21,999 nucleotides of DNA from a virus. This document shows positions 2,778-13,855 of the stretch, piece by piece. Made by a program: the position numbers and the translations under genes. Numbering within the stretch: the first letter of the stretch is position 1; the number at the start of each line of letters is the position of its first letter. Below the pieces are notes generated by a model. It ran no database searches and had not been told where the DNA came from. It saw only the letters and a list, made by a program, of their open reading frames with translations. The stretch covers positions 1 through 21,999 of the IMG/VR virus record IMGVR_UViG_3300028008_000118; one strand, given 5' to 3'.

Positions 2778-3947
2778 TTATTTTTTAAACTTAACCTTAA
2801 GCTTAGAGCTGTTAGTTCCACTGTCAACCGCGCGTATTTTCCACCCATTAGCCGCTGTTACTTCTTCGTGAACCCCTCTCGGATTCATATCAACGTTTTT
2901 TGTGCGGGCCATACTATCTTTTACTGCATCAGCTTTGCCTTGCTCATAAAAGTGTTGTGCGACTTGATCAGCGTTCATTGCTGTGAACAGCGATTTATGG
3001 TAGCCTTTGGCATCCGACATTTCACCTTTTTCGTTCAAGAACTTCTTGATAAAGTTGTTAATGTCACCTTGGGTCTCCTTAACCTTGCCAGTGTCGTTAA
3101 CTTTGAAGCGGTACTTCTTGTCCCCAACGTTGTAATCAAACCCTTGAAAACTTTCGTTGAACACTTTCGCGCTTTCGCGATTAAACCTACTGGTTTGTTG
3201 TTCTGCAATTTTAGCAGCATCCTCACTCTCTTTTGTATAGCGACTAAAAAATTCAACCGCTTTTTGCTGGTCAGGGTTTAGCCTAGACCCAGCTTTAATT
3301 TCATCGTAATATTTAGACTTTAAACTGTCTAAATGATCTTTAGCTTCCGACAGCGCGCGTTTGCGTTCTATTTTTTTCAAACGAACCTCGCGTTCATCGT
3401 CAAGCTCTTCGTCGTAAGCAAATTTGTCATTTAATAGAAAATCTATATCTTCTCTATCGTATGCTTTGTATTTCGTTTCGTAATATTCACGAAGCAATTG
3501 ATCTTCGTTTAATTGCGAGTAGTCTGTATTAAGCCGTACGTAATCCTCTAAAGTACCGCCCGTCTCGTCCATAAAATCAACAACTTTCTGAATGTTTTCA
3601 GGTAAGTTTGCGCCGGCTTTTGTGGACTCCTCAATTGCTGTAGCTACGTCTTCTTCAAGTTGTTCCGCTACCTCTTCGACTTCTTCATCTGTAATCTCTT
3701 GCAGTGCGGACTCTTGTTCTGCTACTTCTTCTTGAACAGGTTGTTCATCTTGAACGCGCTCTTCTTCTCTGGCAGGTTCTTCAACTGCTGTTTCGACGTT
3801 TTGTTCTGGTACTTCTTCGCTAACTGCGGGTTCGTCGCGTACAGGAACCTCATCTGTGCTTTGCTCTTGAACGGCATTAGCTTGCATGTTTACTTTGATA
3901 GTGCCATCTTCATCGACGCCCACTACCGGGTTAGTTTCTTCACTCAT
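2778..3947 (-). CDS. Capsid scaffolding protein
   Basis: The 389-aa protein lies between portal and major capsid genes and has the charge layout of a phage scaffold. Residues about 1-110 are extremely acidic and low in complexity (repeats of VQEE, EEPAREEE, EEVEEVAEQLEEDV). A helical, coiled-coil-prone middle (about 180-250; DDEREVRLKKIERKR) follows. The C-terminus is short, basic and glycine/serine-containing, ending KLKVKFKK. In phages such as P22 and T7, a basic C-terminal segment of the scaffold contacts the capsid subunit; the same role is inferred here. No maturation protease motif is visible in it. A 32-nt spacer with a GTAATTATA element precedes it, so scaffold and capsid may be transcribed as a pair. 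Confidence 0.85.
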   Translation of the reverse strand: MSEETNPVVGVDEDGTIKVNMQANAVQEQSTDEVPVRDEPAVSEEVPEQNVETAVEEPAREEERVQDEQPVQEEVAEQESALQEITDEEVEEVAEQLEEDVATAIEESTKAGANLPENIQKVVDFMDETGGTLEDYVRLNTDYSQLNEDQLLREYYETKYKAYDREDIDFLLNDKFAYDEELDDEREVRLKKIERKRALSEAKDHLDSLKSKYYDEIKAGSRLNPDQQKAVEFFSRYTKESEDAAKIAEQQTSRFNRESAKVFNESFQGFDYNVGDKKYRFKVNDTGKVKETQGDINNFIKKFLNEKGEMSDAKGYHKSLFTAMNADQVAQHFYEQGKADAVKDSMARTKNVDMNPRGVHEEVTAANGWKIRAVDSGTNSSKLKVKFKK

Positions 3948-8624: not shown

Positions 8625-8896
8625 TATTTAGATCTTTTTTCAGCGAACCCTGAAAAAGCTTCTTTTTTTTCTTCTTTAGGCTTGTTCTCTAGTATGCGTT
8701 CTTCGTCTTGGATACGATTTAGTATTTCAAAAGCATCAAATATAGCTAACTTTTTAGTGGCTGCTGCGTTTTTTAATCGATCAGCAGATATATCGTCATC
8801 AGAATCAACTATAGCTTCTTTAGCAACTTTAATAAGTTCTTCAACAGCTTTGTGACCAGCTAGGATTATACTCTTCTTCGTTTCCTTGATATTCAT
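8624..8896 (-). CDS. Small helical protein directly upstream of TerL; small terminase subunit candidate
   Basis: From the ATG at 8896 it encodes 90 aa; an upstream GTG (8926) is possible but lies deeper inside the preceding gene. The protein looks almost entirely helical. It has the segment DDDISADRLKNAAATKKLAIFDAFEILNRI (around residues 33-62, given here only to locate the core) and a charged Lys/Glu-rich C-terminus ending EKRSK. It overlaps the previous gene by 56 nt and TerL by 1 nt. Position and size fit a small terminase subunit, but I see no clear helix-turn-helix, and I recall relatives annotated only as hypothetical. The functional call is therefore by context. Confidence 0.7.
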   Translation of the reverse strand: MNIKETKKSIILAGHKAVEELIKVAKEAIVDSDDDISADRLKNAAATKKLAIFDAFEILNRIQDEERILENKPKEEKKEAFSGFAEKRSK

Positions 8897-9431
8897 ATTC
8901 GACTGTAATTTGATTGGCGGGCACACGGTATAATCGTTCGCCCTCTATATTAAATTCGTATTCCATACCAGGTTTGAAACCCACGAGCGACCCTGCTTCA
9001 AAACCTTCACTAGCATACTTAATAATACCTATTAAAGGTTCTTCTTTATGTAAGCTAAATTTATCTTTTGCCTTTATAGGCTTTACAAAACAAAAACCAG
9101 GTAAAGCATTCCATTCGCTATTGCGTTTGTATGCGTAAACCTGGTCAGGATATACAAAGAACATATCTTCTTTATAAAACGCTCGGCTGTTTTTTTCTTT
9201 GCCTCTAACGTCTCTAAATCTTCTAAACACATTATGATGCACTATTATTTCGTCGCCTTCATGTATATCACCGTTAGTAATTTTAGGTACGCTATTGACT
9301 ACGCCAAGCCTGCTTGTGTAGTGGTGGTTTTGTACTTCTGTATTTAACAGCAGCTTTTTGCCGTTTATTTTTTTTTCGCTAGTAGATCGCCCATCTTTCG
9401 GGCTAACTATAAAGTTGTATACGCTTTGCAT
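8841..9431 (-). CDS. Tandem GroES-like protein (two co-chaperonin-type folds)
   Basis: The ATG at 9431 overlaps the previous stop (TAATG) and gives 196 aa. Two segments follow the order of GroES strand elements. Repeat 1 (about 4-102): YNFIVSP; a long loop with NGKKLLLN where GroES has its mobile-loop GGIVL; RLGVVNSVP where GroES has RGEVLAVG; IHEGDEIIVHHNV where GroES has VKVGDIVIFND; and FFVYPDQVYAYKR as the last strand. Repeat 2 (about 110-182): PGFCFVKPI, then LIGIIKYAS, GFKPGMEYEFN, and LYRVPANQITVEYE, with only a very short mobile loop. The C-terminus is YQGNEEEYNPSWSQSC. Similar proteins in marine phages are, as I recall, sometimes labelled GroES-like. It sits in the packaging gene block, well away from this phage's groEL/groES pair. 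Confidence 0.75.
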   Translation of the reverse strand: MQSVYNFIVSPKDGRSTSEKKINGKKLLLNTEVQNHHYTSRLGVVNSVPKITNGDIHEGDEIIVHHNVFRRFRDVRGKEKNSRAFYKEDMFFVYPDQVYAYKRNSEWNALPGFCFVKPIKAKDKFSLHKEEPLIGIIKYASEGFEAGSLVGFKPGMEYEFNIEGERLYRVPANQITVEYEYQGNEEEYNPSWSQSC

Positions 9432-9649
9432 TACCACTTAAGATCATATTCGATGGATATTGCCATGTTCTTGTTAAAGTCTTTCCATGGCATCACTAGT
9501 TCACCTTTTTGTATATACACAGAGTACTTATCAGATTCCTCTAGTATATTTACTATAGTATGACCACCATACACTTCCTGTCCAACAGAATAGTGCATGG
9601 CGTCATTTTTATAGTCTTTCCCAATACTAATCTTCCTTATTATCTGCAT
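9431..9649 (-). CDS. Conserved small protein of unknown function (72 aa)
   Basis: An ATG at 9649, inside the end of the preceding gene, gives MQIIRKISIGKDYKNDAMHY as the N-terminus. An upstream TTG would add seven residues but seems less likely. The protein is beta-rich with SVGQEVYGGHTIVNIL and ELVMPWKDFNKNM, which suggests a small SH3-like or barrel fold. No catalytic or metal motif is visible. The start overlaps the upstream coiled-coil gene by 23 nt and its stop overlaps the tandem GroES-like gene (TAATG), so the three are probably translated in a coupled way. I recognise it as part of a gene block recurring in marine phages, with no known role. Confidence 0.75.
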   Translation of the reverse strand: MQIIRKISIGKDYKNDAMHYSVGQEVYGGHTIVNILEESDKYSVYIQKGELVMPWKDFNKNMAISIEYDLKW

Positions 9650-10738: not shown

Positions 10739-11026
10739 TTAACATTTCCATCTACGGCGTGCAGCGCAGATACGTTTATCCGGTGTCTTCGAACAATTTA
10801 TATTATGCATTTTCATTTGCCCTCTTGACCGAGCGCAATATGATGTACGACGCTTGCCGCCGCCTGGTTGAGGCGCCTTTAGCTTGCCCCCTGTTTCTTT
10901 GTTATATGCAGCGCGCCCAGCTGCTGTCATTCCAGCGCCCTCTTTAGCACTTAAAAAGTGCCGCCCTTTACCTTTTGTCGTTTTCTTTAGCTTCGCGAAA
11001 GGCGAAGACTCTTGTACGTATGCCAT
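10739..11026 (-). CDS. Basic DUF6321-like phage protein
   Basis: From the ATG at 11026 it encodes 95 aa. The frame is open further upstream to 11053, but without a better start. It is very basic, with AKEGAGMTAAGRAAYNKETG, GKLKAPQPGGGKRRTSYCAR, and a C-terminal RICAARRRWKC. The pattern 'GxTxxGRxxYNxxTGxxLKxP ... KRRxSxCAR ... RRRWxC' matches my recollection of the DUF6321 family, common in marine phages and of unknown function. Cysteines in SYCAR, NINCSK, RICAA and at the final position could bind metal. The charge suggests nucleic-acid binding, for example in the packaged head. It lies behind a 74-nt spacer with inverted repeats. Confidence 0.8.
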   Translation of the reverse strand: MAYVQESSPFAKLKKTTKGKGRHFLSAKEGAGMTAAGRAAYNKETGGKLKAPQPGGGKRRTSYCARSRGQMKMHNINCSKTPDKRICAARRRWKC

Positions 11027-11040
11027 AATATAGTGAAAAT

Positions 11041-11102
11041 GGGGAACGGGCAATAAAATAAGGTAGCGATTCCTTTTCCTACACGCCCGATGTAACCCCG
11101 TT
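11041..11102 (-). other. Intergenic segment with competing inverted repeats
   Basis: In the 74-nt spacer between the HExxH gene and the DUF6321-like gene, CGGGC (11047-11051) can pair with GCCCG (11085-11089), enclosing GTAG/CTAC (11063-11066 with 11079-11082). Alternatively AACGGG (11045-11050) pairs with CCCGTT (11097-11102). The two pairings exclude each other. No U-tract follows. It could be a leader or processing structure for the downstream gene. It does not fold as a tRNA. Confidence 0.3.
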
Positions 11103-11454
11103 ATTTTTTAGTTTTTTGATATGCTTCTTTTTCCCAAGGAAGATCATGAGCACCTTCCATCATTGTTTGGCGGGTGTATACTCTAGCGGGTGAACGAGTG
11201 TCTCTCTTCCACATTACTGTATCCGCTGTATAACCAAGTTTACCCTGAGCCATTTGCTCAAGATGCACTTTCTCGTGTTCAACAGCGTCGTTAATCTTAT
11301 TTTGCGGTAAGCCTTTTTGAACAAATATAGTGCCGTCGCGGTTAGCCTCGGCTTGTATGTTATCGCCTAACTGCTTTTCAAAAACAGGCGTTCCATGGTC
11401 TGACGCTTCTTTATTGATACCAAACAGCGTCTCTTTGTTCTTAAGTTTAAACAT
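11101..11454 (-). CDS. Small HExxH (zincin-like) protein
   Basis: The ATG at 11454 gives 117 aa, starting 2 nt after the upstream stop; a TTG further up would overlap that gene. HEKVH at residues 60-64 (in AVEHEKVHLEQM) matches the zincin HExxH motif, whose His residues bind zinc and whose Glu is the general base. A downstream WEKEAY (107-112) offers Glu as a possible third ligand, as in gluzincins. Hydrophobic residues flank the motif as in a real active-site helix. Proteins of this type are widespread and uncharacterised in marine phages as I recall. It could act as a protease in virion maturation or lysis, or be a non-catalytic zinc protein. It has no signal peptide. Confidence 0.8.
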   Translation of the reverse strand: MFKLKNKETLFGINKEASDHGTPVFEKQLGDNIQAEANRDGTIFVQKGLPQNKINDAVEHEKVHLEQMAQGKLGYTADTVMWKRDTRSPARVYTRQTMMEGAHDLPWEKEAYQKTKK

Positions 11455-11456
11455 TA

Positions 11457-11612
11457 CTAATCGCAATCACAATCGCCGCTGCAGCCGCAATCGTCATCAA
11501 TTGTTGTAAAATTTGCAGCTACTTTACCTGCTGCGTCAATAGTCACTTCCTGCATTGCAGGGTAACTGTTAATGCTTTCTTGCACTCTTTTAGTAATAGG
11601 TATTACTTTCAT
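11457..11612 (-). CDS. 51-aa protein with Cys/Asp-rich C-terminal tail
   Basis: The small frame begins with an ATG at 11612 that overlaps the preceding stop as ATGA and ends with TAG at 11457. It starts MKVIPITKRVQESINSYPAM and ends DDDCGCSGDCDCD. Four cysteines in a CxCxxxCxC array, interleaved with six aspartates, form the last 13 residues, which suggests metal binding. The ATGA overlap upstream and the 2-nt gap to the HExxH gene downstream argue strongly that it is real. A neighbouring zincin-like protein makes a zinc-related role tempting, but there is no direct evidence. I recognise no homologue. Confidence 0.7.
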   Translation of the reverse strand: MKVIPITKRVQESINSYPAMQEVTIDAAGKVAANFTTIDDDCGCSGDCDCD

Positions 11613-12049
11613 CGTTCTTTATCTTTAATCATATCATCAATAGCTTTGTTATAAACTTTATCAGTATACGATTTGTTTTTATAAAATTTGCTTGAGGGTC
11701 CAATAGGCATATCATCGTAGCCTAGCATTATATTATACATCCGTGTTATTAGTCTTCTCGTTTTTTGAGATACTTTAAAAACACTATACTTAATTGTTGT
11801 TTTATTGCGATGGCGCCAAACTTCTATCCAGCCTTCTTTACGCAGTCTTTCCCACCGCTTTTTATCCCAAGCGTAGGTGTAAGATCCGTTAATAAAATCA
11901 TCACGCGTAAACCTGTTTTTGCAATCTAAATATATTAAAAGCTCAAGGTCTGCGTCTTTTATACCATAAGTTTTACAGGCCCATTTTCTAACAAGCCTGT
12001 AATACTTAAGTAAATTTATATCTCGAAGGTCATTAGGTTCTAATCTCAT
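11609..12049 (-). CDS. Winged-helix-like (MarR-type) protein of unknown role
   Basis: The 146-aa, basic, mostly helical protein has the segments ADLELLIYLDCKNRFTRDDF and KKRWERLRKEGWIEVWRHRN. The latter looks like a recognition helix running into a beta wing, followed by KTTIKYSVFKVSQKTRRLITRMY. This resembles a MarR-like winged helix in which helix-loop-helix is followed by a hairpin and a dimerisation helix. Its start overlaps the groES stop as ATGA and its stop overlaps the 51-aa gene as ATGA, so it is embedded in the chaperonin operon. It may be a DNA-binding regulator of virion or lysis genes, or a DNA-associated virion protein. Related marine phage genes exist but their role is unknown to me. 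Confidence 0.75.
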   Translation of the reverse strand: MRLEPNDLRDINLLKYYRLVRKWACKTYGIKDADLELLIYLDCKNRFTRDDFINGSYTYAWDKKRWERLRKEGWIEVWRHRNKTTIKYSVFKVSQKTRRLITRMYNIMLGYDDMPIGPSSKFYKNKSYTDKVYNKAIDDMIKDKER

Positions 12050-12303
12050 TCTACAATAACAACGTCTTGAGCAGTAATTACGTGGAACAAGTTATCATTC
12101 CACTCTATACCGTGACCAGCATGTTTATCGTACCTAATTACATCTCCTTCGCTAACTCCTATTACCAAATGCCCACAACTAATAACTTTAGCTTTTAAGT
12201 ACCTAACGTCGCTGTTTTGCTTTTCAGTTAATTCTAAGCCAGCTACTGTTTTAGGAGCTTCCTTAAGCTTTTCTATAATTATATAATAATTAATTGCTTT
12301 CAT
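12046..12303 (-). CDS. groES: Phage GroES-type co-chaperonin
   Basis: The 85-aa protein follows the GroES strand order: YYIIIEKL (RVIVKRK in E. coli), a mobile loop with TVAGLELTEKQ (residues 19-29), LKAKVISCG, then SEGDVIRYDKHAG (VKVGDIVIFNDGYG) and FHVITAQDVVIVE (LIMSESDILAIVE). The hydrophobic tripeptide that docks on GroEL (IVL in E. coli) is here L23-E24-L25, with a charge in the middle. The roof hairpin of about ten residues between the VG and KVGD elements is missing, as also described for T4 gp31. It starts 14 nt before the groEL stop, so the two are translationally coupled in groEL-groES order. Its stop overlaps the next gene as ATGA. Confidence 0.88.
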   Translation of the reverse strand: MKAINYYIIIEKLKEAPKTVAGLELTEKQNSDVRYLKAKVISCGHLVIGVSEGDVIRYDKHAGHGIEWNDNLFHVITAQDVVIVE

Positions 12304-13855
12304 CTAGACGCATATTAGAAATTATACAATCAGCGGACATAATAGTAATAGATACGCTAATAGCGTTTTTAAGAGCGGTTTTCGTAACTAATACCGGATC
12401 AATTATACCAGCCTTAATCATGTTAACTTGCTTACCTGATATGGCATCAATACCTTTATTTCGTTTTACCACAAAGTCCTCATGCTTAATATTAGCGTTA
12501 GCCATTATGGTTTGGAAAGGCGAGCGTACTGCTTTAAGCAACGAATTATATCCAGCGCCTTTATTTTTAATTTTTTGAGAAGCATATAATAAAGCTATTC
12601 CGCCGCCTGGCACAATGCCTTCTTTTAATGCCGCTTGGGTTGCGTAAATAGCATCCTCAACACGATCTTTCTTTTCTTTAAGCTCAACCCTAGAATCTGC
12701 ACCTACGTATATAATTCCCACTTTACCAGTGAGCATAGACAAACGCTGCTCTAATTTGTTTTTAATGTAACCGTTAGTTTCAGATGCTACTTTAAGTCGT
12801 ACGTCTTCAATACGCTCTTCTAACGTCTGCTGATCAACATCAACTTGTAGTATAGTATTTTTATTGTTTGTAACAGCTTTTGTAACTTCACCTAATACTT
12901 GCGGGTCTATTAAATCTAAATCGTCACCAAGCTCTTCGTTAATAACGGTAGCGCCTGTTAGCATTGCTAAATCATCTAGTGTGTCCGCCTTAGTGTTACC
13001 AAAGCCGGGTATGTCTATTATATTTACCTTAATATTACCCTTTACTTTATTCGCTATTAAAGTTTGGTGAGGTTGCTGCTCTACGTCAGCTATAATTAAT
13101 AAGCTTCTATTCTTTTTAACAACGTGCTCTAGAACGCTTTGTATTTTTCTTATGCTAGCTATGCCCGAAGACACAATTAATACATAAGGATTATCCAGTA
13201 CAGCTACGCCTTTGTCTCTGTCTGTAATAAGATGCGGCGATTTAAGGCCTGAATCAAATTGCGTGCCCTCTACAAAATCAACGTACGTTTCATTCGTATC
13301 GGACTCCTCCATTAAAACAACTCCATCTTTTCCAACGCGCTCGAAAGCTTCGCCAATCTTTTTTCCAAGAATTTTGTCATTGTTGCAGCTAATGTAAGCA
13401 ACTTGCTGTAACATTTCACCCTCAACCGGAATACTGGCACCATCAAGATGAACCATAATTTCTTTAGCACAGCTTTCAACGCCTGCTTTAATTTCTCTAA
13501 TCTCTTTTTCATCTGCTTCTTTTGTAAGCTCTGTTAGTAAAGCATGAGCAAGGACAGTAGCCGTAGTGGTACCGTCCCCTGCTTCACGCACAGTGTTTCT
13601 AGCAGCCTCTTTCACAAGGGTGGCTCCTATGTTTTCGACCGAATCACGTAAGACTACGCTTTCCGCAACGGTTACACCGTCTTTTGTAATGACCGGTCGG
13701 CCTAAGGCGTCTTCGTAAATTACGCATTTACCTGAAGCACCTAAAGTGGACTTCACTGCGTTTGTTAACTTATCGACGCCGGCCATTATTTTTTTATTGG
13801 CTTTATCGCCAAATGTAAGATCTTTAACGATCTCGCTCGGGTTATTAAATTCCAT
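12290..13855 (-). CDS. groEL: Phage-encoded GroEL chaperonin (Cpn60)
   Basis: The 521-aa protein aligns over its whole length with E. coli GroEL (548 aa). ATP-site elements are intact: TLG at 37-39 (TLGAS instead of TLGPK), TKDG at 57-60, GDGTTTAT at 93-100 with catalytic D94 (D87), VEDAIYAT with the D398 equivalent, PGGG, and GIIDP with the D495 equivalent. The YNAAT nucleotide-binding segment reads IDAIS, an Asp seen also in organelle Hsp60s. Apical-domain residues that bind polypeptide and GroES differ: Y199, Y203, F204, L234, L259 and V264 become L204, H208, L209, Q239, H263 and A268. L237 and V263 stay hydrophobic (L242, I267). The C-terminal GGM repeat is absent. It should form a double-ring folding machine for virion proteins, probably with the GroES encoded next. 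The leader is AT-rich with no Shine-Dalgarno sequence. Confidence 0.95.
   Translation of the reverse strand: MEFNNPSEIVKDLTFGDKANKKIMAGVDKLTNAVKSTLGASGKCVIYEDALGRPVITKDGVTVAESVVLRDSVENIGATLVKEAARNTVREAGDGTTTATVLAHALLTELTKEADEKEIREIKAGVESCAKEIMVHLDGASIPVEGEMLQQVAYISCNNDKILGKKIGEAFERVGKDGVVLMEESDTNETYVDFVEGTQFDSGLKSPHLITDRDKGVAVLDNPYVLIVSSGIASIRKIQSVLEHVVKKNRSLLIIADVEQQPHQTLIANKVKGNIKVNIIDIPGFGNTKADTLDDLAMLTGATVINEELGDDLDLIDPQVLGEVTKAVTNNKNTILQVDVDQQTLEERIEDVRLKVASETNGYIKNKLEQRLSMLTGKVGIIYVGADSRVELKEKKDRVEDAIYATQAALKEGIVPGGGIALLYASQKIKNKGAGYNSLLKAVRSPFQTIMANANIKHEDFVVKRNKGIDAISGKQVNMIKAGIIDPVLVTKTALKNAISVSITIMSADCIISNMRLDESN

Follow-up and report, generated by a model that had tools for sequence, protein, structure and literature searches.

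We found that a 117-residue HExxH protein, encoded by a marine bacterial virus in a chaperonin gene string, shares N-terminal leaders and an SPxK motif with the proteins of neighbouring genes. The whole is best explained, with a probability that we put at roughly 0.45, by a free-standing minimal gluzincin-type peptidase that would be addressed together with tagged cargo proteins and would trim them. Our best reading, which we partly infer, is processing or co-targeting of tagged virion cargo; the catalysis, virion location and substrate of the HExxH protein are all putative.

The DNA analysed, hereafter the window, is a 21,999-base IMG/VR virus record. The gene lies in a tight minus-strand string that runs, in order, through GroEL, GroES, a 146-residue protein, a 51-residue protein and the HExxH protein; the overlaps between the first four genes are 14, 4 and 4 nt, and a 2-nt gap separates the fourth from the HExxH gene. 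An earlier note on this DNA had described a small HExxH protein in a chaperonin operon, and its reading frame, motif and position in the gene string are all borne out. The features are as follows.

11101-11454, minus strand: HExxH protein, 117 residues plus stop, ATG start; predicted minimal zincin-like metallopeptidase
11263-11277, minus strand: HEKVH motif, residues 60-64, in helix 51-69; predicted ligands H60 and H64, base E61
11131-11133, minus strand: E108 codon; predicted third zinc ligand, in helix 106-115
11176-11193, minus strand: SPARVY, residues 88-93; SPxK/R-type motif in the insert of the family's long form
11434-11454, minus strand: MFKLKNK, the peptidase N-terminus; FK-type leader
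11457-11612, minus strand: 51-residue protein; PIT-type leader (MKVIPITKR), Cys-rich tail
11609-12049, minus strand: 146-residue conserved protein (phrog_17028, E 3.6e-9), which served as synteny anchor
12046-12303, minus strand: GroES co-chaperonin, 85 residues (phrog_3188, E 5.2e-10)
12290-13855, minus strand: GroEL chaperonin, 521 residues (phrog_5725, E 8.6e-137)
10739-11026, minus strand: DUF6321 protein, basic, with SPFAKL from residue 8 (Pfam PF19846, E 4.5e-14)

Past the HExxH gene come the DUF6321 protein, on which a literature search found nothing, a small match to a tail-fibre PHROG, several small proteins and a second GroES-like protein, and then the terminase, the portal, an acidic protein that we read as a scaffold, and a virion structural protein that we take as the major capsid protein (MCP). 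The phage thus has two GroES-like proteins, a 196-198-residue form near the terminase (8841-9437, minus strand, phrog_13932) and the 85-residue form beside GroEL. Relatives found by tblastn with TerL and MCP are Flavobacterium elemo phages, Cellulophaga phages, Maribacter phage Panino and the uncultivated podovirus MW202828, so a host in the Flavobacteriia or a related group is likely; the distant TerL relatives cr130_1 and cr272_1 are crass-type phages. Promoter and terminator scans stayed at chance level (12 versus 9.1 and 3 versus 3.2), and an Rfam search gave nothing at gathering scores. Elsewhere in the window, a 51-residue ORF (MPFKSKAQMRFLYATNPQLAKK...) at 3722-3877 on the minus strand lies entirely within the 2778-3947 gene in a different frame and matches phrog_1375 (E 1.5e-5); a similar sequence occurs in 6 of 82 loci searched, and in three of these SPFPM, SPLKM or SPLQK lies close to the C-terminus. 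The ORF is probably a real overlapping gene.

HEKVH occupies residues 60-64 and PWEKEAY residues 106-112 (WEKEAY 107-112), the glutamates of the latter being E108 and E110. The motif is the sole HExxH among the 24 window coding sequences examined (7,008 residues), where shuffling predicts 0.07, and 0.77% of shuffles of the 117-residue protein itself yield one. The protein belongs to a large uncharacterised viral family, as judged by sequence: a profile scan confirmed it in at least 478 of 600 listed IMG/VR stretches, and genome bins of bacteria or archaea contain seven family loci. Pfam gave no match for the window protein at E 1. Two PHROGs without an assigned function, phrog_10499 and phrog_16532, are in effect this family, with matches to 38 and 37 of 38 members at a cut-off of E 0.01, and 10 of the 38 match phrog_87, 'metallo-protease'. 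The homologues detected in the phage collection were all distant, in four Methylophilales phages (E 4e-5) and Ochrobactrum phage vB_OspM_OC (best 3e-5), and two further rows below significance.

A first scan of 50 viral relatives showed HExxHxxQ in all 50 and WExxAY in 49 (the exception, L030, ends early), but the first scans were queried with motif peptides and are unfit to judge motif conservation, which is why the 146-residue neighbour was chosen as an anchor. Eighty loci were sampled in this way, the anchor being blind to the motif and the family profile not, and 70 of them have the family by profile; the other ten have no such protein, although one among them, L279, ends too soon to tell. 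Within the 70, H60 is kept in 68 (Glu in the other two), E61 and H64 in all 70, E108 in 69 (one gap), R95 in 68 and W107 in 65. Conservation of HExxH among homologues, one of the checks that the earlier note had named, was therefore upheld in these anchored relatives; of the two downstream glutamates it had put forward, E108 stands and E110 was rejected as third ligand, being kept in only 28 of 70. The HExxH motif is thus accompanied by a downstream Glu on a second helix, in conservation and in the model alike, as in Glu-zincins, and a predicted zinc site of H60, H64 and E108 with E61 as base is well supported. The gene is under purifying selection: dS exceeds dN in all 10 relatives compared (e.g. 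0.62 and 0.067 for L005), dS being saturated or nearly so for the most distant ones. Natural variants that lack the first His, L264 (4081-4440) and L269 (4153-4512) with EEIEH and L162 (2800-3174) with EEDNH, retain E61, H64 and E108; these forms may lack activity or bind metal in another way.

Two AlphaFold2 models, from alignments of 38 sequences (pLDDT 85.9, pTM 0.78) and 56 sequences (pLDDT 88.7, pTM 0.79), agree on a layout of small strands, a helix at 51-69, a hairpin and a helix at 106-115 with E108. HEKVH had been said to lie in an apparent helix, and helix 51-69 of the pLDDT 88.7 model indeed contains it. Foldseek against the PDB gave no match at E 0.001 or below; its best solved matches, not significant alone, are abylysin and selecase at E 0.07-0.10 (top rows 4jiu, E 0.070, prob 0.98, and 4qhj, E 0.079, prob 0.97; VIA Z 4.3 and 4.0), and an unrelated chain, 8ixw, ranked sixth. 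Against predicted viral structures nine matches reached E 0.001, the best being a 301-residue uncultured-virus protein. The top VIA rows are IrrE/PprI (3dte, Z 6.3, 3.4 A over 84 residues at 8% identity), followed by DPC-repair proteases (Wss1 and 6mdx, which we take to be SPRTN) and abylysin, all with Z below 8, and at lower Z by further metallopeptidases (toxin, aminopeptidase and collagenase structures). Most of the best structural alignments are to named metallopeptidases, and the alignments to solved metallopeptidases cover both the HEKVH and E108 motifs. A search of PDB sequences with the family profile returned selecase as the sole match (E 0.0072), stopping at HExxH. Modest fold matches together with the conserved site make a zincin-like metallopeptidase, as a predicted fold, well supported.

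The earlier note had held 117 residues to be very short for a protease, an objection that lapses because abylysin, jannalysin and selecase, among the nearest solved folds, are chains of 104-110 residues. These minigluzincins (abylysin, jannalysin, provisionally M95, and selecase MJ1213) share with the phage protein their size and HExxH motif, and abylysin and selecase top the Foldseek list. They are, however, archaeal, the sequence likeness is weak and extends only up to HExxH, and the phage family has its own GxLxY...PWExEAY signature. Selecase is an active enzyme. What survives of the minimal metallopeptidase proposed earlier is a predicted gluzincin-type site in a minimal metallopeptidase; a prohead-protease role is not supported.

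Both N-terminal leaders recur on unrelated protein bodies. The FK leader, M(x)[FY]K[MLIQ], opens 23 of 181 cluster representatives versus 3.8 expected, a pattern that also catches TerL proteins starting MYKQ (20), which were counted as noise. The PIT leader, PITx[RK], marks 9 clusters out of 209 and 13 out of 232 versus 0.1 expected; internal control windows gave 2 and 0. When bodies were clustered without their first 20 residues, the tagged proteins of at least 60 residues fell into 38 body clusters, among them the peptidase with 138 FK and 5 PIT leaders and another with 27 FK and 96 PIT leaders. The broad SPxK-like pattern matched 362 times versus 32.5 in 1,493 proteins of loci L001-L140 and the window, a count dominated by two clusters (179 + 72 = 251 of 362), and was present in at least half of the members of 39 of 209 clusters. 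The strict form, SP[ALMFIV]K[MKQI], matched 81 times in 1,718 proteins of L141-L300, a set not fully independent of the first as some contigs are in both, versus 3 reversed and 4.75 shuffled, and was found in 19 of 232 clusters versus 1; other patterns counted beside it gave 12 (TP), 11 (SA), 7 (SPxE), 4 (NP) and 3 (PS) matches. Synonymous codons of PIT and SPxK are broadly like background, which points to selection on the peptide. The second codon of the FK leader is biased (GCA in 25 of 30 Ala), so initiation effects may add to the FK signal.

Three proteins of the window are tagged: the peptidase (MFKLKNK, SPARVY), the 51-residue protein (PITKR) and the DUF6321 protein (SPFAKL, a looser SP match). 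The 51-residue gene directly precedes the peptidase gene in 31 of 129 loci, and all 32 members of its cluster have the PIT leader; some relatives (L005, L015, L020 and other loci) carry SPMKM adjoining CGCGCG-type Cys-rich tails, and a metal-binding or zinc-donor role for this protein is conceivable. A 321-residue SP/PIT-tagged protein of another locus, L154, had no tblastn match in the phage collection. Literature searches with the SP and leader strings gave no report of the leaders; the matches were unrelated, those to leader strings as judged from their titles.

Tagged genes gather close to the peptidase gene. They occupy positions -1, +1, +2 and +3 in 40 of 115, 23 of 119, 42 of 120 and 23 of 116 loci, many of which are close kin, and are rare at -2 and -3 (2/105 and 1/99) and more than three genes away (22/958). 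Among the 146-residue-anchored loci, 33 of 69 with the peptidase had a neighbour in the 3 kb downstream that was tagged or bore an SP match, versus 0 of 9 without (Fisher p 0.0085, kinship ignored), one cut-off locus and one with the anchor missed being left out. Six longer contigs with the peptidase carry 5, 3, 4, 8, 11 and 0 SPxK motifs, the peptidase's own included, versus 0, 1, 0, 1, 3, 0 and 0 in seven without it and 2 in one with a weak homologue; this count did not take in three contig tails and portions of two named records. Because the loci are kin and some share a contig, none of these counts represents independent events. A TerL-anchored comparison of SP motifs and peptidase (30 loci, 20 with the family and 10 without) was set aside: 11 of the 20 family loci had no SP match, and absence in the loci without the family means little because other genes, often tail-fibre-like, fill the stretch before TerL.

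The preferred explanation is that tailed phages whose named TerL/MCP relatives infect Flavobacteriia make the peptidase, most likely late, from the chaperonin gene block near the terminase and head genes, and with it small proteins that are often basic and of low complexity. Zinc would be held by H60, H64 and E108, with E61 predicted to activate water. The leader and the SPxK motif would bring peptidase and cargo together, most likely in the assembling or ejecting virion, and the peptidase would trim the tagged cargo proteins and not the capsid protein. Two family members, L035 and L140, also count for this reading: in each, the peptidase domain is fused to a long low-complexity protein.

An active peptidase might instead work like the ImmA/IrrE peptidases on a host protein with a regulatory or defence role and sit among tagged genes by chance, which we consider unlikely. 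IrrE/PprI supplies the top VIA rows and 3dte the best structural alignment, the Ochrobactrum phage homologue is annotated as ImmA/IrrE family (E 3e-5, L122 query), and the homologue in Methylophilales phage Melnitz-3 lies among mostly hypothetical, non-structural genes. On the other hand, identity to 3dte is 8%, and the ImmA/IrrE profile PF06114 does not match the window protein at E 1 and matches 3 of 38 relatives (best E 0.0042). Moreover, in many relatives the peptidase gene shares a block with those for chaperonin and DUF6321 and with pre-terminase genes, the leaders are common to the peptidase and its neighbours, and comparable loci lacking the peptidase lack the tagged neighbours as well.

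It is also improbable, in our estimate, that the leaders and the SPxK motif are real but unrelated to the peptidase; they might, for example, serve basic internal proteins in binding DNA or in folding, and the link would then come from a shared gene order. Proteins with the motif are in many cases basic, and SP-Lys motifs occur in DNA-binding histone tails. The pairing is, furthermore, incomplete: 36 of the 69 peptidase loci have no tagged neighbour downstream, G008 has the peptidase and no SPxK motif, and G026 has three motifs with no peptidase found. Against this, the family itself bears the leaders, FK in 90 and PIT in 5 of 129 proteins (neither in 34), and its long form bears the SP motif.

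Much less probable is a non-catalytic, zinc-stabilised structural protein, as the earlier note had also suggested. Small size and the three members without the first His would fit such a protein, and no activity was detected for the first reported minimal Glu-zincin (PMC3890501). The base E61, which a structural zinc would not need, is nevertheless kept in 70 of 70, and a purely structural zinc site is disfavoured for that reason.

The prohead protease profiles PF03420 (S77) and PF04586 (S78) do not match the window protein at E 1. Neither do they match in 11 contigs that carry the HExxH protein, and among 18 records searched S78 was found in none and S77 in one, Melnitz-3. Five named phages related by TerL and MCP (phi38:1, phi18:3, Panino, elemoE and MW202828) have neither the HExxH family nor S77/S78, which implies that the head lineage does not need the HExxH protein; the same holds for the gene content of Gundel_1, related by TerL only. 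That the HExxH protein replaces the S77/S78 enzymes in maturing the major capsid protein is therefore highly unlikely, despite the carrier contigs without S77 or S78 and a gene near the terminase and head genes, since it is absent from the five named phages whose MCP and TerL are homologous, Melnitz-3 carries an S77 prohead protease as well as a HExxH homologue, and nine loci with the same 146-residue neighbour manage without it. Some relatives have holin-like (our own reading), M15 and amidase genes close by, which lends weak support to a role in lysis.

Trimming of tagged cargo would have a counterpart in T4, where internal proteins bear a capsid-targeting sequence of about 10 residues and a protease is present in the same core (PMC9958956). 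Like that system, the phages studied here have a short N-terminal sequence on proteins encoded beside a protease; unlike it, their protease is unrelated to gp21 (S77 is not matched), the leader is unrelated, and the virion location of the tagged proteins is putative. We regard as doubtful, if attractive, the more specific proposal that unrelated parts have come to form a system analogous to the T4 pair of capsid-targeting sequence and gp21. In it, exchangeable leaders (MAFKMKGFSGFK-like and PITxR/K) and SPxK would address to the virion a changing set of small cargo proteins and a zinc peptidase of 100-150 residues, itself often bearing the same leader, and the cargo would be trimmed before or during ejection. 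Crass-type phages load both head and tail with large amounts of protein cargo (PMC10172136). Taken alone, the HExxH protein stands for a family that is uncharacterised but whose kind of fold is known, and it would be useful as a very small metallopeptidase scaffold. If the preferred explanation is true, leaders common to unrelated phage proteins, with a small peptidase, would form an addressing code for phage cargo. Such cargo, with bodies so diverse, is difficult to recognise, and the leader could help to predict it in uncultivated phages.

Zincin-like domains have been proposed to process phage cargo such as P1 DdrB, and the phage MPTase domain of polyvalent proteins is described as a three-stranded sheet, an HExxH helix and a Glu helix (PMC5512222). 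The HExxH protein resembles these domains in its HExxH helix followed by a Glu helix, its small sheet, its phage origin and the proposed link to packaged or injected proteins; whereas they sit in large multidomain proteins, it is a single-domain protein encoded by a 117-residue ORF, with the two fusions mentioned above. Giant proteins of 3,859 and 3,694 residues with HExxH motifs, in L053 (741-12320) and L054 (36852-47936), belong to named phages of the lineage without the small peptidase and recall the polyvalent proteins.
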